Source: Marinibacterium profundimaris
GTDB lineage: Bacteria > Pseudomonadota > Alphaproteobacteria > Rhodobacterales > Rhodobacteraceae
DNA length: 57,383 bases
Direction: 5' to 3'
NCBI RefSeq assembly: GCF_002210095.1
Contig: NZ_AQQR01000022.1
Coordinates: forward strand, 1 to 57,383
This document shows, piece by piece, positions 7,757 through 22,796 of the stretch. Below the pieces are notes generated by a model. The model was not told the origin of the DNA and did no database searches. It saw only the letters and a program-made list of their open reading frames with translations. Both the position numbers and the translations under genes were made by a program. Position 1 is the first letter of the stretch. Each line of letters begins with the position of its first letter.

Positions 7757-8555
7757 GATCAGCTTCTCAGCGGCATCCTCTGAGGGAAACGAACCCCGCG
7801 TCTTGATCGATTTCCGGATCACCCGGTTCAGGGAAGGCCGAGTTGATCGCTTCAGGGAATCCTTTCAGCCCGTCCACCACCGCGATCAGGATGTCCTGGA
7901 CCCCACGGTTGCGCAGCTCCGTCATCACTGCAAGCCAGAACTTGGCGCCCTCGTTCTCCGCGATCCAGAGTCCCAGAACCTCGCGCTGGCCGTCGCCAGT
8001 GACGCCGAGCGCCAGATAGACGGCCTTGTTCTTGACAATCCGGCTGTCCTTATCCCTGATCTTCACCCGCAAAGCGTCAAAGATGTCAATGGGATAGACC
8101 GTGTCCAGCGCTCGCGAGCGCCATTCCTTGACCTCGTCGAGAACGGCGTCGGTGACACGGCTGATCAGGTCCGGAGAGACTTCCAGGCCATAGAGTTCCT
8201 CCAGATGGCCACGGATGTCGCGCACGCTCATGCCACGGGCGTACATCGCGATGATCTTCTCGTCCAATCCGTCGATCCGGGTCTGGCCCTTGGCGACCAG
8301 GCGAGGTTCGAAACTGCCGTCCCGGTCCCGCGGCACATCAATCTCGAACGCGGCGTCCTCGCTTTTCACGGTCTTTCTGCTGATACCGTTCCGCCGGTTG
8401 GTCTGGACCGGCGGCGCCTCCGCACCATGCTCGTAGCCAAGATGCTCGGCTCCCAACATCCGCTGCATCAGCGCCTTCTTGAGCTCCTTCATCAGCCCGT
8501 TGTCACCTAGCAGGCCTTCTGGCCGCTCGCAGCCCTTCAGCAGCTCGTCCAGCAC
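7757..8555 (-). pseudogene. IS256-family (Mutator-type) transposase with internal deletion
   Basis: From GTG 8555 the frame reads [16 protein letters not shown] through the IS256 catalytic regions ([16 protein letters not shown], then [18 protein letters not shown]). At about 7828-7837 the sequence jumps, out of frame, to the far C-terminal motif [22 protein letters not shown] and soon after (about 7757) loses homology. Roughly 100 codons, including the last catalytic Glu region, are missing. The shared TCCCTGA at the junction suggests deletion through short homology. The CRISPR array starts 80 bp upstream of its 5' end. Confidence 0.88.
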
Positions 8556-8634: not shown

Positions 8635-10249
8635 CGGACACTCTCCGCGTGTGCGGGGAACAGAATACACGTCGCGCGAGTTGCTGCGGAATAACCGGTT
8701 CATCCCCGCGTGTGCGGGGAACAGCCCCGCGCCTTCAGCAGCCGCGCGTCGTGGGCCGGTTCATCCCCGCGTGTGCGGGGAACAGCGGCGGTCGTACCAG
8801 TATTTCACCACGCCGATCGGTTCATCCCCGCGTGTGCGGGGAACAGAGGCCGTAGCCCCCGCCCAGGTTCACCGGGAGCGGTTCATCCCCGCGTGTGCGG
8901 GGAACAGAGGCGGGGGATGGAACGGGGAAGGGGGCGGGTCGGTTCATCCCCGCGTGTGCGGGGAACAGATCGTGTCGCCCAGAAACGACACAACGCAGGT
9001 CGGTTCATCCCCGCGTGTGCGGGGAACAGATCGCCGCCTGCGCTTCCTCCTCGGACAGCCCCGGTTCATCCCCGCGTGTGCGGGGAACAGCCGCGCGGCT
9101 GGGCGGGGATCGTGAAGTCGGCCGGTTCATCCCCGCGTGTGCGGGGAACAGATGGGCCAGCGTTCAGATCCGCGCTATCGCCGCGGTTCATCCCCGCGTG
9201 TGCGGGGAACAGAGGTTCTCCATGAACCAGATGACAACCGGGTTCGGTTCATCCCCGCGTGTGCGGGGAACAGGGCCTGCGTTCCTCAAGGCCCTTCAAT
9301 TCTGCCGGTTCATCCCCGCGTGTGCGGGGAACAGACTTCGAAGCGCAGTCACGTCCTCTCGGATGTCGGTTCATCCCCGCGTGTGCGGGGAACAGCTCGT
9401 CAGGATCGCGGGCAGGTTTTGAAACGTCGGTTCATCCCCGCGTGTGCGGGGAACAGCTGCTCGGGTTGTCCGGGTCTGGCGGCACGGACGGTTCATCCCC
9501 GCGTGTGCGGGGAACAGTTCCCCGCCGCGCTGGCCCGGTGCTTCCGGCGCGGTTCATCCCCGCGTGTGCGGGGAACAGTCGACGCCTTCGGAAGAGTTGA
9601 CCATGAACCCCGGTTCATCCCCGCGTGTGCGGGGAACAGCTTGTATGCTGTGATGGTCATTCTGCTGCTACCGGTTCATCCCCGCGTGTGCGGGGAACAG
9701 AAACAGTCGATGCGCCCAGGCCACGATTTCCTCGGTTCATCCCCGCGTGTGCGGGGAACAGAGACCTCATGCATCTCCGCCCTGAAGGCCAACCGGTTCA
9801 TCCCCGCGTGTGCGGGGAACAGCACACCGTCGCTGGCGTAGATGGCTGGATCGCCGGTTCATCCCCGCGTGTGCGGGGAACAGAGGCGGGATGACAGAAG
9901 CACCAAGGGTTGGTGCGGTTCATCCCCGCGTGTGCGGGGAACAGATGGGGTGGGTGGATGATGAATGGCCTGTCGCCGGTTCATCCCCGCGTGTGCGGGG
10001 AACAGCGATTGAGATGGCCGGTGCATCTCCTGATGGCCGGTTCATCCCCGCGTGTGCGGGGAACAGCCCGGACATCGGGCAAATCCACCCGCTCACGGCG
10101 GTTCATCCCCGCGTGTGCGGGGAACAGAACTGGATACGTCTACTTTCACTTGGTCTCTCCGGTTCATCCCCGCGTGTGCGGGGAACAGTCTATGTGGGGC
10201 ATGTCAGGCAATCCCGAGGGCGGTTCATCCCCGCGTGTGCGGGGAACAG
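8635..10249 (-). CRISPR. Type I-E CRISPR array: 27 repeats, 26 spacers
   Basis: The 29-bp repeats are spaced exactly 61 bp apart (starts 8635, 8696, 8757 ... 10221), so every spacer is 32 bp. On the plus strand the repeat begins CGGTTCATCCCC and ends GCGGGGAACAG. By analogy with E. coli the transcribed strand is minus, giving crRNAs with the 5' handle ATGAACCG. The leader-proximal end is at 10249, next to cas2. The last, leader-distal repeat (8635-8663) has five substitutions in its first ten bases, as is common for the oldest repeat. All other repeats that I read look identical. No spacer was seen by eye to match elsewhere in the window. Confidence 0.99.
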
Positions 10250-14468: not shown

Positions 14469-14472
<4 letters not shown>

Positions 14473-15935
14473 GCCGTCACCTCCGGTTTGCCCGCGGGCT
14501 CAAGCCCCAACAGTTCATATGCCTTGGCCCCGTTCCCCTTTGCCCCGACGAACGCCGCCACCAACCCTGCCCGTGCCCGCGCGATCCTGTGTTGCGCCTC
14601 CATCGGGCGATCCGCCAAACCGGGCACTGCCCGATCATCGAAAAGGCGCAAGGATACCCGGCGCAGCTCTGCCACCCAGTCCCGCGCCACTTCTTGCAAA
14701 GCCCGACCCGCCACCAACTCGGCCGCCCACTGTTCGAACCCAGCCTGGGTGAGGTCGTAAAACGCCTCCTGAACCGCCTGCCGCGCCTCACCCGCGCCCA
14801 TCACCGGTGCCAGCGCCCCGCGCAGGCTGCCACAGAACAGATCCGCAGCCCCGATCATCCCCCGCAGGGCCAGCCCGCCATCCGGCAGGTTCAACAAAGG
14901 CGGCTCGGACCAGGTGAAATCCAGCGGTTTCATGTTGTCCATTGCCCAGCCGGCCACGATCAGGTGCGCTTGCTGCCAGCCCGACCGCTCATGCCACAGG
15001 GCCACCGAGCGGCCGGTTTGCGACAGCGCGTCCTCGCCGCCGTCAACCACCACGCCAAGCCAGTTGCGGTAGCCAAACCGCCCCGGCTTGGGATGCTTTG
15101 GCAGCAGCTCGGCGCCTTCTTTCATGCGGTAGTAGGGTGTCAGCGGGTGGACCCAGCCGGCATAATTCGCCCCATAGGGCCGCTGCACGACGCCGGTGAT
15201 CTGCCCTGCGTCTTCGACCAGTCGCAACCGCCTCGGCGTTCCGAAAAATGATTCTGCTTCAATGCCTTGCTGTGGATACCGCTCGCTTCCCTTGTCCTGC
15301 GACACCTGCGTTGGCTGCATCCAGGGCAACGCCTCGGGATCACCGGGCATGCCATCCGGCACATTGGCCCAGATCATTGGCCACAGCCCCTGCCCCGGTT
15401 CGATCAGCGTGACCATCGGTCCGCCGCCCCGCATCGATGTCCGGTTGCCCGCGCCACCCGATGGCGCATGAGCTTGAAATGTGTATAGCGCCATGGCTGC
15501 CAATGCCGGGTCCAGCACCGGATAGCGGCCACGATGGACCATAAGATCGGCATTGTTGCGCGCCGTGTTCGCCCCGGCGCTGTCGATGAACAACATGTCG
15601 GGCGTATTGGGTGCGCCGGGCAGGTCCTCAAGATCCTGCAGGAACCGCGGCCCATCCCCGGTCAGCTCAAACGCCGATGCAAAAGGCCTCAGGCGGTCGC
15701 TCAGCCGCTCCGGGTCCGGGTCTTGGCGATCCTCCCAATCGTCGCTGTCCTCGGGCGGATCGGCCAGGAAAATCAGCCCGATCAAGAACTCCAAACATCC
15801 AAGGTTCAGATCTGGGCGCGGCCAATCCGGCCGAAGCAGATCCGCATCCGCCATCTGCCAGGGCGCGATCGTTTTCCTTTCTCCCGTTTTGGTCAAAACG
15901 GGAATCCACGCATGATTGATCAAATTGATGGGCAT
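14469..15935 (-). CDS. cas8e: Cas8e (Cse1/CasA), PAM-recognising Cascade subunit
   Basis: The protein has 488 residues. Cas8e reads the PAM and recruits Cas3. The N-terminus MPINLINHAWIPVLTKTGERKTIAPWQM is diagnostic for Cse1. The C-terminal part is helical, as in the four-helix bundle of the family. It is the first gene after a gap of about 300 bp following cas3. That gap carries a promoter, a repeat-like guide and a mini-ORF, so Cascade and cas1-cas2 may be controlled separately from cas3. Confidence 0.96.
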
Positions 15936-16033: not shown

Positions 16034-16101
16034 CGTCTTAACCTCCTTGCGTTAGCTACCAATCGTTTTGGCTCAACGATGGAAAGCTTGTTTCGATGCA
16101 G

Positions 16102-16132
16102 AGGCGAATCTGGTTTCCAGATTCGCCTTTTT
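16102..16132. other. Hairpin at the predicted 5' end of the cas8e transcript
   Basis: A 12-bp perfect stem (16102-16113 with 16117-16128, TTT loop) is followed on the plus strand by a short T tract. Read on the plus strand it looks like an intrinsic terminator, which could stop antisense transcription entering the cas3 end. On the minus strand it would form a 5' cap hairpin on the cas8e leader RNA. Confidence 0.6.
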
Positions 16133-16133
16133 C

Positions 16134-16162
16134 ATTCTGCGCCTTTCGTAATAGTTCGTCAA
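16134..16162 (-). promoter_or_regulatory. Predicted promoter reading toward cas8e
   Basis: On the minus strand TTGACG (16162-16157) and CAGAAT (16139-16134) are separated by exactly 17 bp. They match sigma-70 consensus at 5 of 6 and 4 of 6 positions. Transcription would begin near 16127. A 32-nt Cascade footprint on the predicted guide target (from 16186 down to 16155) would cover the -35 hexamer. Confidence 0.6.
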
Positions 16163-16182
16163 CGGTCAAGAACCTTTGATTA

Positions 16183-16262
16183 CGCTCTTATCCCCGATAG
16201 GGCCGGGGAACTCTGTGAACCTTTGATGACGCTCGGTTCATCCCCGTTCTTCCGGGGATACA
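16183..16262 (-). ncRNA. Candidate Cas-regulating guide RNA (CreR/CreA-like mini-CRISPR)
   Basis: Read on the minus strand, pseudo-repeat 1 (16262-16234) matches the array repeat at 20 of 29 positions and keeps a CCCCG/CGGGG stem and the exact 8-nt handle ATGAACCG. A 20-nt pseudo-spacer (16233-16214) follows, beginning AGCGTCATCAAAGGTTC. Pseudo-repeat 2 (16213 to about 16184) begins GAGTTCCCCG, has a six-pair stem and a degenerate handle ATAAG. Cas6e could process this to a short crRNA-like guide. The first 17 nt match 16186-16170 at 16 positions, next to AAG. Expression would depend on cas3 readthrough or a promoter I cannot see. Confidence 0.72.
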
Positions 16263-18739
16263 ATAACCAAACCAGCTTTCTCGGTATACCGCAACCCGGC
16301 ACAGATGACGCCCTCCACATCCACCGGGCATAGAACCGTCTCCGCTTGTCTCCATTCTGGCCAATCCGCTTTGATCGCCGCGATCTCGGGCGTCTCTTGG
16401 TCCGGCAGCTCCAGCCCCCGGAACCGTGCCGCGTTGGCCGAAACCTCGGACAAAGACCAAAGCTCGGCGGCGCTCCGCCCCGGCACCCGCGCCCAGGGCA
16501 TCAGTTGACCCTGCTCCCACCGTGCTAGGCACAAGGTTCGTTGATCCATCCCAAGGCGCGTTGGGAAGCTACGGTCATCTGCATCGGCTCCGCCCGAGCG
16601 ATAATCCTTGTCCAGATCCGCCCGGTTCTGGCGCGCCATGTTCTGGCGGGCCAGCCCGTCCCCCAGACGTTCCAGCTCGGCCTGCTCCAGCACAGTCGGA
16701 ACCGGCGGCGCAGCTGTGCCGTCCACCGCCTCGATCAACCCGCGCAGCCCATGCGGCGCATCAATCGCACCCGCCTCGAACAGGGCCCGCGCCGTGCGCC
16801 ATTGCTGATCCACCGGATAGGTCCAAGCGCCGCGGTCGAGCACCTCTCGCAGCCAAAGAGCCGTCTTCACCTCAGACGGATCCGGCGACAGAACCTGCAA
16901 GACCGGATGCGGCACCGGACGTGTTTGTGCAGGGCGCAGATCCATGTGCCGCCAGAGCCGCCCTGCTCTCTGGATCAACGAGGCCATCGGCGCGAGATCC
17001 GACAGCATGACATCAAAATCCAGGTCCAGCGACGACTCTATGACCTGCGTCGCAACCAGAACCTGGCCGCGCCGTCCCTCTCCGGTTTTCCCGAAACAGG
17101 CCAAGGCCCGGGATTGGATTTCCATCCGATCGCACAGGGCAAACCGCGCATGCAGCAGTGTCGCAGGCACGCCCCTGGCGCGCAAAGCCTCGACCGCCGC
17201 AATCGCGTCATCAACCGCGTTTCGGACCCAGGCACAGGCCGCCCCATCGGCTACCGCCTGAACAAGATGCTCCACCGCGGCATCGGATGTTGCCAGCCGT
17301 TCCACCCGTACCGGACCGCGCAGATCGGGCATGGCGGGCACCGGCTCTGGCGCGCGGCCGGCAATGGTCAGCGCCGGATAAGGCGCCGCCACGGGCAGGT
17401 CGTCTCCCCAAGCTGCCAGCAGCATGTCGCGCTGCGCCCGCGGCAAGGTTGCCGTCAACAAGATCGCCGAGCCGCCATTCTCCCGATGGGCCCTGAGCAG
17501 CGTCGCCAGCAGCTCGGCCATGTAGGGCTCGCCAACCTCATGCACTTCGTCCACGATCAGGATCTTTGACGACAGGCCATAAAGCCGCAACGGAGCATGC
17601 CGCGTTTTCAGCACCGCCAACAGCGCCTGATCAATCGTCCCGACCCCGACAGCCGCCAACAAGGCGCGCCGCCGGCTGTCCATGAGCCATTCGGTCGGGC
17701 CTGGGGCATCTTCGCTCCGTGCGCGTTCGGCGGCGATATCACGATAGGTCTCAGACAAGGCGGATCGGCCATGCGCCAGTGTCAACGTCGGGGCCGTCGC
17801 ATAAAGGGCCGTCAGCGCAGGCCCGACCCGCGCAAACATCGCATCCGAAGTGGCCATGGTGGGCAACGCGAAGTATAGCCCCCTCCCCTTGCCGCACTGA
17901 ATCATCCTGTGCGCCAGGATCAAGGCCGCCTCTGTCTTGCCCGATCCGGTTCCGTCCTCGATCAGCGCAAGGACCGGGCCGTCCGGCAGGGCGAGATCCG
18001 CAACAGCCGCCTGCATGGGCCGTGGGGACGCCGGTAGAAGATCGCCCTGCCCCGGTTGCGGCACTTCCAACCCCGCGGCCCACACCGCTGCTTTTGCCCG
18101 GTGGCGAGCTGCATCGAGATAGGCCGCCGCAGCCGGCCCAGGGTTGACCGCAGGAAACCACTTAGCGTTCGACCCGACCCAATCCGCTGCGGCGATGAAC
18201 CCTGGCAACCACCAAGACAACGCCTGCAGATCGGTGGTCTCAAGTCTGGTAAGATCGGCCTTGGGCCAGAGCTCAGAGAAGCAGCGGATGACCCCCGCAG
18301 CATCCTGGCTCGCCGCTGTTCCGATCGCGGTTCGCAACCTGTGCAGGTTATCGCCGGTCTTTTGCGGTGGCCGCCCGTGATGACCGGCAATCGCCGCATG
18401 GATCCACGCCCGTCGCCTAGGGCTTGGCCCGAGACATGTCAGCAACGCATCATGGTCCCGCAACAGCACCTCGGTCGCTTCCCAGTGGCGACCATGGCGT
18501 TGCGGTTTCCCGTTGGTCAGCATGTCTCGGAACGACTGGCTGATCTTACCCAGATCGTGCAGCGCAGCCGCGAGAACGCAAGCCTGCTGACGGCTATCGG
18601 GCAAGTTCAACGGGGCCAAAAGGCATTCGGCCACGGCCGCCACGTCGAGCATGTGATAGACAGCCGGGTGCATCGGTTCCGTAGGGGAAAGAGCGCCCTT
18701 TCCTGGCCATGTTTCAGCGATGCGCAGAAGGTCGGTCAC
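16238..18739 (-). CDS. cas3: Cas3, type I-E nuclease-helicase
   Basis: The protein has 833 residues. Cas3 degrades target DNA after Cascade binding. The N-terminal HD nuclease shows AALHDLGK (His61-Asp62) and AIAGHHGR near residue 120. The SF2 helicase shows Walker A GSGKT (265-269), the DEVH box (397-400) and LTATLP. The start is GTG 18739 with GGAG 9 bases upstream. The stop TGA (16240-16238) lies inside the handle of pseudo-repeat 1. It follows repC by 93 bp on the same strand, so readthrough from repABC is possible. Confidence 0.97.
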   Translation of the reverse strand: MTDLLRIAETWPGKGALSPTEPMHPAVYHMLDVAAVAECLLAPLNLPDSRQQACVLAAALHDLGKISQSFRDMLTNGKPQRHGRHWEATEVLLRDHDALLTCLGPSPRRRAWIHAAIAGHHGRPPQKTGDNLHRLRTAIGTAASQDAAGVIRCFSELWPKADLTRLETTDLQALSWWLPGFIAAADWVGSNAKWFPAVNPGPAAAAYLDAARHRAKAAVWAAGLEVPQPGQGDLLPASPRPMQAAVADLALPDGPVLALIEDGTGSGKTEAALILAHRMIQCGKGRGLYFALPTMATSDAMFARVGPALTALYATAPTLTLAHGRSALSETYRDIAAERARSEDAPGPTEWLMDSRRRALLAAVGVGTIDQALLAVLKTRHAPLRLYGLSSKILIVDEVHEVGEPYMAELLATLLRAHRENGGSAILLTATLPRAQRDMLLAAWGDDLPVAAPYPALTIAGRAPEPVPAMPDLRGPVRVERLATSDAAVEHLVQAVADGAACAWVRNAVDDAIAAVEALRARGVPATLLHARFALCDRMEIQSRALACFGKTGEGRRGQVLVATQVIESSLDLDFDVMLSDLAPMASLIQRAGRLWRHMDLRPAQTRPVPHPVLQVLSPDPSEVKTALWLREVLDRGAWTYPVDQQWRTARALFEAGAIDAPHGLRGLIEAVDGTAAPPVPTVLEQAELERLGDGLARQNMARQNRADLDKDYRSGGADADDRSFPTRLGMDQRTLCLARWEQGQLMPWARVPGRSAAELWSLSEVSANAARFRGLELPDQETPEIAAIKADWPEWRQAETVLCPVDVEGVICAGLRYTEKAGLVIVSPEERG

Positions 18740-18832: not shown

Positions 18833-19951
18833 TCACGCCGATACACCGGCGCCGGTCCTGAGCAGTGCCATGATCATCGGACCCGGAGAGAACCCAGTCT
18901 TGCCGACTAGAGCCCGAAGGTATCCTCCGGGGCGTTGGATTGATTGACCTTTCTGAAGGATCGCGGCCAATGTCACGGCGGCTTGTTCCGGGCCAAGCCT
19001 ATGTTGCGCTTCGGACCAAGCTGGGCGGCTGATCCCCATCATCGGATGCAACATATGCGAGGCCGCGACCAATTCGTGCCAATGGTGAATTCCTCCGGGC
19101 ACGTAATCCTCGATCTCGGGACAGGCTTTCAGGACGAGCTCAAGCGGCAGACCTATGTCTTGCTTTTCCTCGCGAAGTTCAGATTCAAAAGTATTATGGT
19201 CTGAATCCTGAATGTGCCGCTCAGTTTGACTGTCATTGCCGCTTGAAACGGGTGTTTCAAGATGATCGACCCACTCGGTTATCCCTATCAGTAGCGACTT
19301 TGCCCGCTCGTTCAGACGTGCGATTTCCTCAAGGGACAGTTTCCGGCGCAGTGCGGACTTGAGCATTGCCAACTCGGCGACGAACGGCTCCCACTCCTGC
19401 GGGAGATGATCGCGCCCGAAAGCCAGGAGCTTTGTCGCGTCGCGCAGAGACAGGACCAGGACCTCACGTTGGCGACGCAAAGTGTCGGCGGCGGTGCGGG
19501 CGGCCTCGGCCGCGGCGGAGATCTCGGCGGCACGGACGAGCAGGGGGCGCAGGTCGAACCCGAAGGCCGATTGCTGCGTGGCATAGCGTTTGCCGTTGGG
19601 ACTGTCATGGCGCAGGATCAGGCCGGCGGTCACCAACGTGGCCAGGTGCCGGCGCAGAGTGCTTTCGGCCATGCCGTTCGCGCGTTCGCCCAGCTTTCGG
19701 TTCGACGGAAAGACAATCGTGCTGTCATTCTTCGACAAACGCGGTTGTGGCAGGAAGGACAGCAGCGCTGACAGAACTGTCAACGCACGGTCGCCCAGAC
19801 CGAAGGCCTGTCGCGCCGTTGTCAGATCGCGCAGGATTGCCCATTTGTTGATGTCGCGTGCCGGGGCAGGGGCCTCGGCCAGCCTGCGACGGTTCAGATG
19901 GCCAGCCGTCACCGGCCGCCGCCCAAAGGGCGTCGTGGAAAGATGTGTCAT
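18833..19951 (-). CDS. repC: RepC, replication initiator of the repABC module
   Basis: The protein has 372 residues. RepC is the essential initiator, and the origin of repABC plasmids lies inside its gene. The N-terminal part (INKWAILRDLTTARQAFGLGDRALTVLSALLSFLP, FPSNRKLGERANGMAESTLRRHLATL) is the conserved winged-helix region. An AT-rich stretch (about 19157-19230) in the C-terminal half is a plausible unwinding site. The ribosome site is weak and follows a leader hairpin, as expected for ctRNA control. Confidence 0.96.
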   Translation of the reverse strand: MTHLSTTPFGRRPVTAGHLNRRRLAEAPAPARDINKWAILRDLTTARQAFGLGDRALTVLSALLSFLPQPRLSKNDSTIVFPSNRKLGERANGMAESTLRRHLATLVTAGLILRHDSPNGKRYATQQSAFGFDLRPLLVRAAEISAAAEAARTAADTLRRQREVLVLSLRDATKLLAFGRDHLPQEWEPFVAELAMLKSALRRKLSLEEIARLNERAKSLLIGITEWVDHLETPVSSGNDSQTERHIQDSDHNTFESELREEKQDIGLPLELVLKACPEIEDYVPGGIHHWHELVAASHMLHPMMGISRPAWSEAQHRLGPEQAAVTLAAILQKGQSIQRPGGYLRALVGKTGFSPGPMIMALLRTGAGVSA

Positions 19952-20142: not shown

Positions 20143-21048
20143 CTATTCGCCGCTTCCCTCGATATAGTCGCGGTGAATTCTCTCGATGTTTTCCGCCAGC
20201 CAATCGCCGAAATCGCCCGATTTCGCGCGTTCCAGCACCAGCGTGATCTTTTGCTCTGATCGGGTGACCTGACCCAGGCTGCGACCGTTGACACCTGTCA
20301 ACTTTGGTGGGGCGGGTGACGGTGCCTTCTCCGGTGCCAGTGCCCGGAACACAGCGTCAAAGCGTTTATCGGATGTTTCGCCGACCGCCAGAGCAAGAGC
20401 ATTTTTGCTCTGGCCCGCCATGCGCTCGGCCAGCGCCAACCAGCGGTCGCGGCCCACCGAGGGCGCGGCGCCGATGGCGCGGATCACGGGCGCGGGGATG
20501 TCTTCGGTGACCTTCAGCATCCGCGAAATCACGGTCTTGTCGATATGCAGCGCATCGCAGATGATTTTGCGCTCAAAGCCCAGCTCGACCATCTGGCGCG
20601 CGAAATTGGCTTTTTCGATAAAGCTAAGTTCCTTGCGGGCAGTGTTTTCCTGCCCCTGTGCGATGATCAGGTCGCGGTCCTTCAGATCGCGGATCATCGC
20701 GCGGACTGGTTGGCCAAGCGCCCTTAGTGCCGCGACCCGGCGGCGGCCATAGACCACCTCGTAACGGCCTTCCTCGTTGGGAGAGTGGCGCAGAAGCACC
20801 GGCACCTGCTGACCGTAATCCCGGATCGAAGCGATCATCGCCTCCAGATCGTCATCGGGATCGAGCCGGTCGACCAGCCCGGCCGTGTCGATCATATCCG
20901 CGGGCACTTCGGTCAGCGACCGCGTGCGCAGCTCGGCAATCGATTGGCTGACCGCGCCGATCGCGCCTTTGGCCGCGCGCGGGGCAGGGGAGGGGGCCGC
21001 CTTGGCGTTTCCCTCCATCAACCCCTTTAATAGATCCTTTCGTGCCAT
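20143..21048 (-). CDS. repB: RepB, ParB-type partition protein
   Basis: The protein has 301 residues. RepB binds parS and works with RepA in partition. It shows MARKDLLKGLM at the N-terminus, the ParB/Sulfiredoxin-like domain with YEVVYGRRRVAALRALG, and ENTARKELSFIEKANFARQM before the HTH (ICDALHIDKTVISRML). AGGAGG lies at 21058-21053, overlapping the repA stop, so the two genes are coupled. A 16-bp parS-like palindrome sits inside the coding sequence. Confidence 0.96.
   Translation of the reverse strand: MARKDLLKGLMEGNAKAAPSPAPRAAKGAIGAVSQSIAELRTRSLTEVPADMIDTAGLVDRLDPDDDLEAMIASIRDYGQQVPVLLRHSPNEEGRYEVVYGRRRVAALRALGQPVRAMIRDLKDRDLIIAQGQENTARKELSFIEKANFARQMVELGFERKIICDALHIDKTVISRMLKVTEDIPAPVIRAIGAAPSVGRDRWLALAERMAGQSKNALALAVGETSDKRFDAVFRALAPEKAPSPAPPKLTGVNGRSLGQVTRSEQKITLVLERAKSGDFGDWLAENIERIHRDYIEGSGE
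20287..20302. promoter_or_regulatory. Second parS-like palindrome, inside repB
   Basis: GTTGACACCTGTCAAC has the same 7-bp arms (GTTGACA/TGTCAAC) as the site at 18814 and differs only in the central two bases. Two copies with identical arms in one replication module support a real binding site for RepB. Confidence 0.5.
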
Positions 21049-21057
21049 CTGGTCCTC

Positions 21058-22233
21058 CTATCGCTCCCAGGCGCCCTGGATCATACCGGCAATCTCGGCA
21101 TTGACCGCGTTCATACTTTCAAGGGCGCGTTCATAGGTGGTTCGGACAAACTGCGATTTCTCGACTTCGTAGAGCGTTTGCTTAGTCATCCCGGCATCCG
21201 AGATCGCCGTGGACTTTAGCGCGGGGTGGTTGAGGACGTGCTCGCCAAACATCGACCGCATGAAGCTAACCATTTGGTTCTGCGGCCCGTCGCCAGGTTC
21301 GTAGCGCGTCACCACGTAACGCATCCAGTCGTAGGACATGTCTCCGCCCGCATCCGCCACCACGCCAAGCAACTGAGAGGTCATCAACAGGAACTGGCAC
21401 ATCGACATGACATCGAGCATCTGCGGATGCACCGTCACGAGGATCGCGGTTGCCGCCGACAGCGCCGACATGGTCAGGAAGCCGAGCTGCGGCGGGCAAT
21501 CCATGACCACCACGTCGTAGCGATCTTCGATATCGCCAAGCACTTCGCCCACCCGGGTGAAAAACACCTGCCCCTTGCGCTCGGCCAGCACGCGGGGCGT
21601 GTCGTGTTCGAATTCCATCAGGTCTAGGTTGCCGGGCACGATATCCAGATTGGTGAAATAGGTCTTCTGGATGACCTCGGCGATCGGGACGGGATCGTCA
21701 TAGCGGATCGCATCGTAGAGGGTGCCACCGTCCTGCAGATCGATCTCCGGCTGAAATCCGTGCAAGGCGGAAAACGATGCCTGCGGATCGAGGTCCAGCG
21801 CCAGCACCCGATAGCCGTCAAGCGCAAGCTTCTGCGCCAGATGCGCCGAGGTCGTGGTCTTGCCAGAGCCGCCTTTGAAATTGATGACCGAAATCACCTG
21901 GAGATGGTCGCCTTCGCGGCGCCCCGGCAGATAGGTGCCAGGCGTCTTGGCGCCTTTCTCCAGCATGACGCGCAGGGCCTGGATGTCTTCGGGCGCATAA
22001 AAGCGACGGCCGTTGCCGCGGATCTCGGGTTCGGGGCCGCGGCCATCCAGATGCAGTTTGCGCAGATAGGCGTCTTTGATTCCGAGCAGCGCCGCCGCCT
22101 CGCCAGAGGTGAACTTGCGCATCTTGCGCCGCGTGTCGGGCGGGAACAGCTGTTCGCGATGCGCTTGCAACGTCTCCGACAATCGGGTTGCATGATCCCC
22201 GACGAGGATATCGATGCGCTCTTTCCGCGTCAT
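21058..22233 (-). CDS. repA: RepA, ParA-type partition ATPase and repABC autorepressor
   Basis: The protein has 391 residues. It shows an N-terminal HTH region (FTSGEAAALLGIKDAYLRKLHLDGRGP), then a deviant Walker A KGGSGKTT (120-127) and a Walker B-like VVVMDCPPQLG. ATG 22233 is chosen because repABC RepA proteins begin shortly before the HTH; the longer frame upstream is not conserved-looking. RepA moves plasmid copies and represses its own operon. The gene is divergent from brnT. Confidence 0.95.
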   Translation of the reverse strand: MTRKERIDILVGDHATRLSETLQAHREQLFPPDTRRKMRKFTSGEAAALLGIKDAYLRKLHLDGRGPEPEIRGNGRRFYAPEDIQALRVMLEKGAKTPGTYLPGRREGDHLQVISVINFKGGSGKTTTSAHLAQKLALDGYRVLALDLDPQASFSALHGFQPEIDLQDGGTLYDAIRYDDPVPIAEVIQKTYFTNLDIVPGNLDLMEFEHDTPRVLAERKGQVFFTRVGEVLGDIEDRYDVVVMDCPPQLGFLTMSALSAATAILVTVHPQMLDVMSMCQFLLMTSQLLGVVADAGGDMSYDWMRYVVTRYEPGDGPQNQMVSFMRSMFGEHVLNHPALKSTAISDAGMTKQTLYEVEKSQFVRTTYERALESMNAVNAEIAGMIQGAWER

Positions 22234-22346
22234 GACTGCCTGCCTAGTTCCTTTGTGGACGCACCGTTTGTTACGGTTATTCGCGTCTCTCTTAGCTCTT
22301 AGCGTAAATGAATGCCCGTAAGTTGCGATTCTTGCAAGAGGTTTGT

Positions 22347-22358
22347 CCCACATGTGGG
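22347..22358. promoter_or_regulatory. Palindrome in the repA-brnT divergent region
   Basis: The 12-bp perfect palindrome CCCACATGTGGG lies about 115 bp upstream of repA and 135 bp before brnT. It is a candidate operator for RepA or for the BrnTA complex; which one cannot be told from sequence. The surrounding 22234-22493 gap carries no gene. Confidence 0.4.
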
Positions 22359-22462
22359 GGTAGGGCAGGGGGCGGGTACAATAACACTGCCGGGGTACGG
22401 CCAGCGTAGCGCATTCGGAGGACACTGTGCGTGCCTTGCCGGGCGACGGCGGCGCGCACTTG

Positions 22463-22468
22463 TATAAT
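22463..22468 (+). promoter_or_regulatory. -10 box of brnTA
   Basis: A perfect TATAAT lies 26 bp before the brnT ATG. No good -35 is present at 16-18 bp (TTGCCG is 21 bp away), as in some activator- or repressor-controlled promoters. A TGTAGTTACA palindrome lies between it and the start codon and could be the BrnA operator. Confidence 0.5.
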
Positions 22469-22493
22469 TGCATCTTTGTAGTTACATTCCCCC

Positions 22494-22796
22494 ATGACCT
22501 CACCGCTCGTCACTTGGGACGAAGACAAAAATCTGTCGAACCAACGCAAGCACGGGGTCAGCTTCGAGCTCGCAGCCCGCGTGTTTCTAGATCCGCTGCG
22601 CCTATCGGTTCAGGACCGGGTCGATGATGGCGAGCAACGGTGGCAGACCATCGGGCAAATCGACGGCCTCGCGGTTGTTCTAGTCGCGCACACCTACACG
22701 GAAGAGGGGAGCCTGGACGACTCGGTGGAGGTGGTCCGTATTATCTCGGCCCGTGCCGCGACACGAAAAGAAAGGAAGCGATATGAAGAAGGTTGA
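22494..22796 (+). CDS. brnT: BrnT-family toxin
   Basis: The protein has 100 residues. BrnT is a RelE-fold ribonuclease toxin. The opening VTWDEDKNLSNQRKHGVSFELAARVFLDP is diagnostic for the family (DUF497), and the C-terminus VVRIISARAATRKERKRYEEG holds the conserved RIISAR motif. It overlaps brnA by 14 bases, giving toxin-first order as usual for BrnTA. It probably stabilises the plasmid. Confidence 0.95.
   Translation: MTSPLVTWDEDKNLSNQRKHGVSFELAARVFLDPLRLSVQDRVDDGEQRWQTIGQIDGLAVVLVAHTYTEEGSLDDSVEVVRIISARAATRKERKRYEEG

Follow-up and report, generated by a model that had tools for sequence, protein, structure and literature searches.

Introduction

CreTA modules have been described in the type I-B CRISPR-Cas systems of Haloarcula hispanica and Halobacterium hubeiense, in which the CreT mini-ORFs contain AUA or AGA codons (PMC8501985). 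According to the sections of that report consulted here, degenerate repeats (ΨR) lie beside a pseudo-spacer (ΨS), two in H. hubeiense and most others and one in H. hispanica; ΨS partially matches the promoter of a small RNA that carries a rare-codon mini-ORF followed by a stem-loop, and the whole module lies inside the cas locus. Two bacterial systems are also close, as far as the consulted portions of their reports describe them. The Cascade-repressed toxin of Citrobacter rodentium belongs to a type I-E system and lies in the cas3–casA gap with a PAM-flanked target at its promoter; its 96-bp ORF contains no rare codons, and the guide is encoded on the opposite strand (PMC12055562). The type I-F CreTA of Acinetobacter WCHA45 has a ΨR, a ΨS and a mini-ORF with a Shine-Dalgarno sequence between cas3 and the first effector gene; this 33-bp mini-ORF is divergent from creA, and its toxicity depends on RNA sequence and a hairpin, not on rare codons (PMC10097628). 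CreR, by contrast, is a crRNA-like guide directed against a cas-locus promoter, as outlined in the consulted part of a review (PMC12737573). Finally, the lambda bar minigene consists of a start codon, AUA and UAA, and in peptidyl-tRNA hydrolase-poor cells it causes peptidyl-tRNA to accumulate and free tRNA to fall; it is a phage gene, and CRISPR control of it is not known from the excerpt consulted (PMC8012679).

Here, we describe a locus in a 57,383-nucleotide stretch of DNA (the window) that shares the general plan of these systems. Compared with the haloarchaeal modules as presented in PMC8501985 (consulted in part), it differs in belonging to a type I-E system of Alphaproteobacteria, in an extra 5' hairpin, in a ΨR1 that lies over the cas3 stop codon and in ΨS lengths that change in 6-nt steps; moreover, the only rare codon of the window minigene adjoins its stop codon, whereas characterised toxins of haloarchaea contain two consecutive rare codons. 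Unlike in C. rodentium, cas3, creT and the guide all share one strand. In contrast to CreR as reviewed, the window promoter leads into a minigene RNA, with the toxin-like minigene directly behind the promoter; however, six relatives fit CreR by layout. With lambda bar, the minigene has in common a very short ORF, AUA directly before UAA and an expected loss of free tRNA, but it has four codons instead of two.

The authors of PMC8501985 report, in the part consulted, that several bacterial CreTA modules were predicted in Science 2021, and some of the loci described here may therefore be among them. Literature searches that paired CreTA in turn with Rhodobacteraceae, type I-E or Alphaproteobacteria, and minigene or rare codon gave, at the level of the listings, no paper that appeared to describe the present form. 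Thus, CreTA is already known, one type I-E case included, while the alphaproteobacterial minigene form looks new. We know of no earlier description of four features: a minigene of the bar type, a guide element that overlaps the cas3 stop codon, guide lengths that differ in 6-nt steps, and a single slot in which toxin and cas outputs are exchanged.

Results

A guide-like element and its target lie between cas3 and cas8e

The window comes from a 6.15-Mb genome and contains a type I-E gene set comprising cas3, cas8e, cse2, cas7e, cas5e, cas6e and cas1e, as identified by matches to NCBIfam models (Table 1). The array repeat, read on the same strand as ΨR1, is CTGTTCCCCGCACACGCGGGGATGAACCG; 26 copies have an identical 26-base core, the outermost unit, at 8635, is degenerate, and the spacers are 32 nt long. 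A fragment of an IS256-family transposase (7767-8555; 262 aa, covering positions 3-208 of a 338-position profile) adjoins the end of the array. Because repC (18833-19951), followed by repB and a parA-like gene (20143-22503), lies just upstream of cas3 on the same strand, the replicon that bears the system is very probably a repABC plasmid, in agreement with an earlier note on this DNA. The repC–cas3 order is also found in the Frigidibacter mobilis plasmid pcai42C.

Table 1. Positions of the guide element, its target, the candidate creT RNA and neighbouring features in the window
Feature	Position	Strand	Remarks
CRISPR array	8635..10249	-	27 repeat units, 61-nt period
cas8e (Cse1/CasA)	14469..15935	-	first Cascade gene; NCBIfam; followed by cse2, cas7e, cas5e, cas6e and cas1e down to 10587
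11-bp stem-loop	15973..16007	-	downstream of the minigene; without T run
Proposed creT minigene ATG GGT CCG ATA TAA	16019..16033	-	rare AUA directly before stop
Shine-Dalgarno sequence AAGGAGGT	16041..16048	-	
12-bp hairpin	16102..16128	-	expected 5' end of creT RNA; preceded by an A run
Sigma-70-like promoter TTGACG-17-CAGAAT (proposed PcreT)	16134..16162	-	consensus match only
Target AGCGTAATCAAAGGTTC	16170..16186	-	matches ΨS in 16/17 bases; sole mismatch at position 6
ΨR2 GAGTTCCCCG...	16185..16213	-	second degenerate repeat; expected 3' handle; 3' end overlaps PAM and first target bases
AAG PAM	16187..16189	-	adjoins target
ΨS AGCGTCATCAAAGGTTCACA	16214..16233	-	20-nt pseudo-spacer (creA guide)
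ΨR1 TGTATCCCCGGAAGAACGGGGATGAACCG	16234..16262	-	degenerate CRISPR repeat; 8-nt 5' handle ATGAACCG intact (16241-16234)
cas3	16238..18739	-	guide at its 3' end

The earlier note had placed in the cas3–cas8e gap two pseudo-repeats around a 20-nt pseudo-spacer, a target next to AAG that differs from the pseudo-spacer at position 6 only, and a promoter by consensus match. The element was reproduced base for base, and target, PAM and promoter were found as claimed. ΨR1 is identical to the array repeat in 8/8 handle bases and in 20/29 bases overall (ungapped), ΨR2 matches it in 15/29 bases, and the two match each other in 14/29; ΨS is thus flanked by two divergent repeats. It is shorter than the array spacers by 12 nt (2 x 6). 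ΨR1 overlaps the end of cas3, as the cas3 stop codon TGA (16240-16238) sits within the handle A-TGA-ACCG. Because no minus-strand sigma-70-like site was detected at 16163-16450, we infer that creA is co-transcribed with cas3.

When ΨS was shuffled 100,000 times, no shuffled sequence reached a 16/17 match in the window gap and the best reached 15. Moreover, the 17-mer with position 6 left free occurs at only two places in the genome, i.e. ΨS and target, and AAG followed by the first 11 guide bases (position 6 free) has a single match, which is the window target. The site that ΨS matches adjoins the PAM and lies at the predicted consensus promoter ahead of the minigene. The window gap gave no matches in blastn against plasmids or in an Rfam search.

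Guide and target co-vary in related loci

Relatives of cas8e were collected from species genomes (80 loci kept of 82 confirmed), from 394 family, 390 order and 385 class genomes (with matches in 21, 14 and 8, respectively, the window's own genome being counted in each), and from 40 plasmid records, 13 of which were inspected. Leaving out duplicates, loci without cas3 and loci cut at a contig end, the species- and family-genome loci together with the window gave 80 distinct loci with cas3 upstream of cas8e. L080 is missing from this set and was included in later analyses. The gaps of the 80 loci measure at most 130 bp in 37 loci, 131-699 bp in 39 and more in 4. A repeat-like handle is present in 24/39 medium gaps and in 1/37 short gaps.

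In 20 of the 24 loci with a handle, the gap contains a site that matches the locus's own ΨS in at least 12/17 bases, compared with 15/552 cross-locus pairings; at a threshold of at least 13/17, the numbers are 17/24 and 1/552. ΨS and target sequences differ from locus to locus while the internal match is kept. Thus, guide and target co-vary, and the match between pseudo-spacer and promoter pointed out in the earlier note is conserved in this sense. Four loci fall below 12/17. L022 has a full 11-base seed with AAG and a mismatch solely at position 6, which the 17-base score missed; L035, L036 and L050 are decayed copies with a handle and no matching target. The scan used here was oriented and unbiased and replaced a first scan with a handle filter in which mismatches were allowed only at every sixth base.

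In a seed-weighted scan of all loci, 31/44 loci with a handle reached 20 points, among them 0/4 of those in short gaps, and AAG adjoins the target in 27/31. The corresponding cross-locus control gave 63/1,892 pairings with at least 20 points; 23 of these came from L032, probably because of a second handle-like word within its repeat sequence. Because the seed-weighted score favours a mismatch at position 6, the test of mismatch positions described below rests on the unbiased scan. The 31 loci and L042, which the handle rule missed and which was added by hand, form the set of 32 guided loci. L033 and L034, where a whole CRISPR array fills the gap, were excluded from the seed-weighted scan, L063 (19 points) was not counted, and neither was L117, in which a guide-like match was noticed by eye but the handle pattern is not satisfied. 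Upstream of cas8e, L117 displays, also by eye, a match with an ATG PAM, a hairpin and a short arginine-rich ORF with AGA AGA. In the sister loci L083 and L085, the first 11 guide bases are common to both, the ΨS lengths are 12 nt apart and each locus has a matching target.

Guide elements carry signatures of Cascade

Cascade flips out every sixth guide base, each Cas7 subunit spans 6 nt of the guide, and AAG is the canonical I-E PAM. Among the 20 targets of the unbiased scan, in which no PAM was imposed, AAG was found at 17 and AAC, ATG and ATT at the others. Mismatches occur at position 6 in 14/20 and at position 12 in 10/20 loci, and none occur at positions 2-5, 7 or 11; positions 6 and 12 together account for 24/57 mismatches, a share that was equalled in 0/20,000 permutations. 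The ΨS lengths in the 32 guided loci are 20 nt (8 loci), 21 (4), 26 (2), 31 (1), 32 (14), 33 (2) and 38 (1), i.e. 32 plus or minus whole 6-nt steps, give or take one base, and loci with a short ΨS occur at scattered places in the cas8e tree. As read from sequence, the AAG PAMs, the mismatches at positions 6 and 12 and the 6-nt length steps are signatures of Cascade, and the reading of the element as a guide is strongly supported. According to the consulted part of PMC10989794, Cascade of altered stoichiometry can form when spacer length changes, and short spacers in a type I-B system repress without interference.

The cas3 stop codon lies inside ΨR1 in 21/32 guided loci and is the TGA of the handle in 10 of them, the window included; it lies within 60 nt upstream in 5 loci, just inside ΨS in 4, and further off in 2 (74 and 413 nt). 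Since a promoter for the guide could in most loci only be located within cas3, the guide is probably cut from the cas3 transcript.

The targeted site precedes a predicted structured RNA with a rare-codon minigene

In the window, the interval of about 200 nt between promoter and cas8e contains a 12-bp hairpin, a Shine-Dalgarno sequence, a 4-codon ORF and an 11-bp stem. The promoter is located upstream of cas8e, but the predicted minigene RNA lies in between. The predicted creT RNA has a folding z of -4.88. Read on the + strand (16100-16130), the 5' hairpin is a terminator-like stem followed by a T run, and A runs likewise lie ahead of the 5' hairpin in several relatives; the hairpin may stabilise the RNA or end transcription on the other strand.

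The minigene has features of the lambda bar type: the ORF is very short, follows a strong Shine-Dalgarno sequence and has a rare codon as its last sense codon. In a sample of 97,782 codons (261 ORFs, filtered for third-position GC, from 400 kb of the window's genome), AUA makes up 0.155% and UUA 0.026%, which places AUA as only the eighth-rarest codon. This table superseded an unfiltered one (AUA 0.392%), which long antisense ORFs may have entered. Bacteria require tilS for AUA decoding, and tilS is present in the genome.

The distance from target to cas8e exceeds 170 nt in 26/32 guided loci, referred to here as creT-type, and is 83-131 nt in the other six (L037, L042, L090, L115, L140 and L148), leaving no room for such a toxin RNA. 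The creT-type loci often have the order promoter, hairpin, Shine-Dalgarno sequence, very short ORF and stem. The hairpin begins 46-77 nt past the target start, with a stem of at least 9 bp in 14/26 creT-type loci versus 2/1,560 shuffles. A second small hairpin with a loop like CGTT(G/C)CAGCG was seen by eye just before the Shine-Dalgarno sequence in L006, L055, L081, L109 and L142, and variants of it occur.

Rare-codon mini-ORFs accompany guides in relatives

By an automatic rule, a rare-codon mini-ORF follows the target in 15/32 guided loci, all 15 of them among the 26 creT-type loci, and in 0/71 unguided loci; the latter comprise 0/29 with long or unmeasured gaps and 0/42 with short gaps, which are the weaker control because short gaps leave less room for a mini-ORF. 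With this qualification, the candidate toxin is seen only together with a guide, as an addiction module predicts.

One family of mini-ORFs, M-G-x-I/L-stop, lies behind AGGAGGTTnnGAnGATG in the window, L109 and L142 and behind a weaker Shine-Dalgarno sequence in L085; the forms nearest to the window minigene are ATG GGT CTG ATA TAA (L109) and ATG GGT CCA TTA TAG (L085). A second family, xTG-nnn-AAA-ATA-CCy, is found in L008, L038, L055, L062, L067, L068 and L112, with related forms in L066, L079 and L098. In KIP-type mini-ORFs, the rare codon lies at least one codon before the stop codon and not directly at it, and the comparison with lambda bar therefore applies to some members of the family only. 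Isolated forms include TTA TTA TTA (L022) and ATC AGG ATA TAA (L087); L006 (GTG AGA TGA) is a weak case among the 15.

The automatic rule failed at 11/26 creT-type loci. In L085 and L066, it missed rare-codon minigenes that are present; the L142 minigene ends in CTT, which makes up 1.0% of codons in the window's genome and is not rare there; the short ORFs of L028, L079 and L098 contain none of ATA, TTA, AGA and AGG; L058 appears decayed, having lost the start codon and ATA; and no mini-ORF could be named in the creT-type regions of L081, L083, L096 and L151. Besides guide and target, the L081 gap holds a longer small ORF, about 60 codons in length, whose product appears helix-turn-helix-like on inspection by eye. 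In a hand-read list of 20 mini-ORFs, which omits the creT-type loci L058, L062, L081, L083, L096 and L151 and includes some frames picked by eye, 21/81 sense codons are among the eight rarest, compared with 0.93% in the genome sample and 9.6% of triplets from the same regions. Because of these omissions and choices, we rely on the automatic rule.

On a quick cas8e tree, guided creT-type loci are scattered (26/102 rows, 23 changes); at least 20 of the 23 changes are forced by well-supported branches, and clustering is no greater than with shuffled labels. The decayed modules in L035, L036, L050 and L058 fit a stepwise loss. Moreover, Rhodobacter capsulatus DSM 1710 (L098) has the module and strain SP108 (L080) lacks the whole element; the two strains nevertheless share a conserved stretch of ~100 bp immediately upstream of cas8e.

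Discussion

Judging from sequence comparisons, the element is likely a CreTA-type CRISPR-addiction module in which Cascade and a guide silence a toxin RNA that depletes a tRNA. In this mechanism, the cas3 transcript would continue into creA, a minimal array with two repeats that sits within the 3' end of the cas3 gene, and cutting by Cas6e would yield a guide with the handle AUGAACCG and a 20-nt spacer beginning AGCGUCAUC. Cascade loaded with this guide would bind AAG and the target just upstream of the -35 box and block the promoter, the pairing being presumably too short or too poor for cleavage. As in CreTA modules generally, this repression would be expected to require Cascade and CreA but not Cas3. 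The repressed gene, creT, would give a structured RNA on which the strong Shine-Dalgarno sequence drives repeated translation of AUG GGU CCG AUA UAA; together with peptidyl-tRNA drop-off, this would tie up the scarce AUA-decoding tRNA-Ile, as with lambda bar AUG AUA UAA. Loss or inhibition of Cascade would release the toxin, and cells losing Cascade would therefore be penalised. As reported in the consulted part of PMC8708949, the toxicity of a minigene increases with a strong Shine-Dalgarno sequence and UAA as stop codon and also depends on length and last codon, two-codon ORFs being the most toxic; however, one minigene with toxic-type features was not toxic when induced, and creT is therefore a candidate toxin.

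CreTA, i.e. toxin repression, is the best reading for the window over CreR, i.e. cas autoregulation, because what follows the promoter, in the window and in many of the guided relatives, is a structured RNA containing a rare-codon minigene, and because R. capsulatus keeps the ~100 bp before cas8e with or without the element.

The two functions could also be combined, in a variant that overlaps the preferred reading and that we consider possible but clearly less probable. A single repressed transcript would then include the toxin minigene and extend by read-through into the Cascade genes; when Cascade declines, its synthesis would rise first, and poisoning would follow only later. In the window, no further sigma-70-like site was detected on the minus strand from the element to cas8e, and the 3' stem lacks a T run; the promoter may therefore also feed cas8e by read-through. 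By contrast, some relatives have terminator-like stems, or a conserved separate region, before cas8e.

That the guide simply represses the Cascade operon, with cas8e mRNA as the main product and the 200-nt leader untranslated or regulatory, is in our view unlikely for the window. The six guided loci whose targets lie close to cas8e and the single promoter-like site in the window speak for such autoregulation, but the window has the creT-type layout of 5' hairpin, Shine-Dalgarno sequence, minigene and 3' stem, and rare-codon mini-ORFs occur by the automatic rule only alongside guides. Moreover, the stretch upstream of cas8e in R. capsulatus is conserved whether the module is present or absent, and a stem followed by a T run was seen by eye between minigene and cas8e in L038, L055 and L068. 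Of the earlier note's central proposal, a Cascade guide aimed at the gap promoter is supported by co-variation, PAM and mismatches at positions 6 and 12, whereas the idea that the regulated gene is simply cas8e is not supported, given the minigene RNA behind the promoter and the comparison in R. capsulatus.

ΨR1-ΨS and ΨR2-target in the window resemble a tandem duplication, and two similar segments could have arisen by duplication of repeat plus spacer and be operators for a protein repressor, with no guide RNA involved. This is very improbable, since the sequence varies between relatives yet the internal match is kept, AAG replaces the end of the handle, and neither mismatches at positions 6 and 12 nor 6-nt length steps are expected of a protein operator. 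Equally hard to credit is a functionless, decayed CRISPR remnant whose match was left from duplication: decayed copies do exist (L035, L036 and L050), but 20/24 loci with intact handles have a matching target, 17 of these with AAG, guide and target change together, and rare-codon minigenes are confined to guided loci.

If CreTA is the correct reading, a built-in guide RNA appears to keep a tiny poison-RNA gene off, and losing the CRISPR machinery may cause a cell to poison itself. Such a penalty would help to explain how CRISPR systems resist loss and persist despite their cost, and the module would provide a bacterial counterpart to rare-codon CreT toxins, which have been demonstrated only in haloarchaea in the portions of the literature consulted. 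Roughly thirty loci, several of them from cultured species, would then be natural replicates of one CRISPR-guarded control slot. Comparing them could reveal which responses phage anti-CRISPR proteins set off, by what means Cascade avoids cleaving its own genome when it works with short guides, and how a guide and its target can evolve in step while the cell survives.

More generally, we lean, by a narrow measure, to the view that type I-E systems of Alphaproteobacteria, and a few others, have one exchangeable control slot between cas3 and cas8e. In this slot, a guide that usually overlaps the cas3 stop codon and is loaded into Cascade at lengths stepped by 6 nt (20, 26, 32 and 38) would silence one of two outputs, a rare-tRNA-depleting minigene toxin of the bar type or the Cascade operon; guide and target would be rewritten together and the output swapped, giving an addiction module or a thermostat. 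In two Paracoccus metagenome-assembled genomes (L033 and L034), a whole CRISPR array lies between cas3 and cas8e, and an array in this position may be a route by which creA guides originate.
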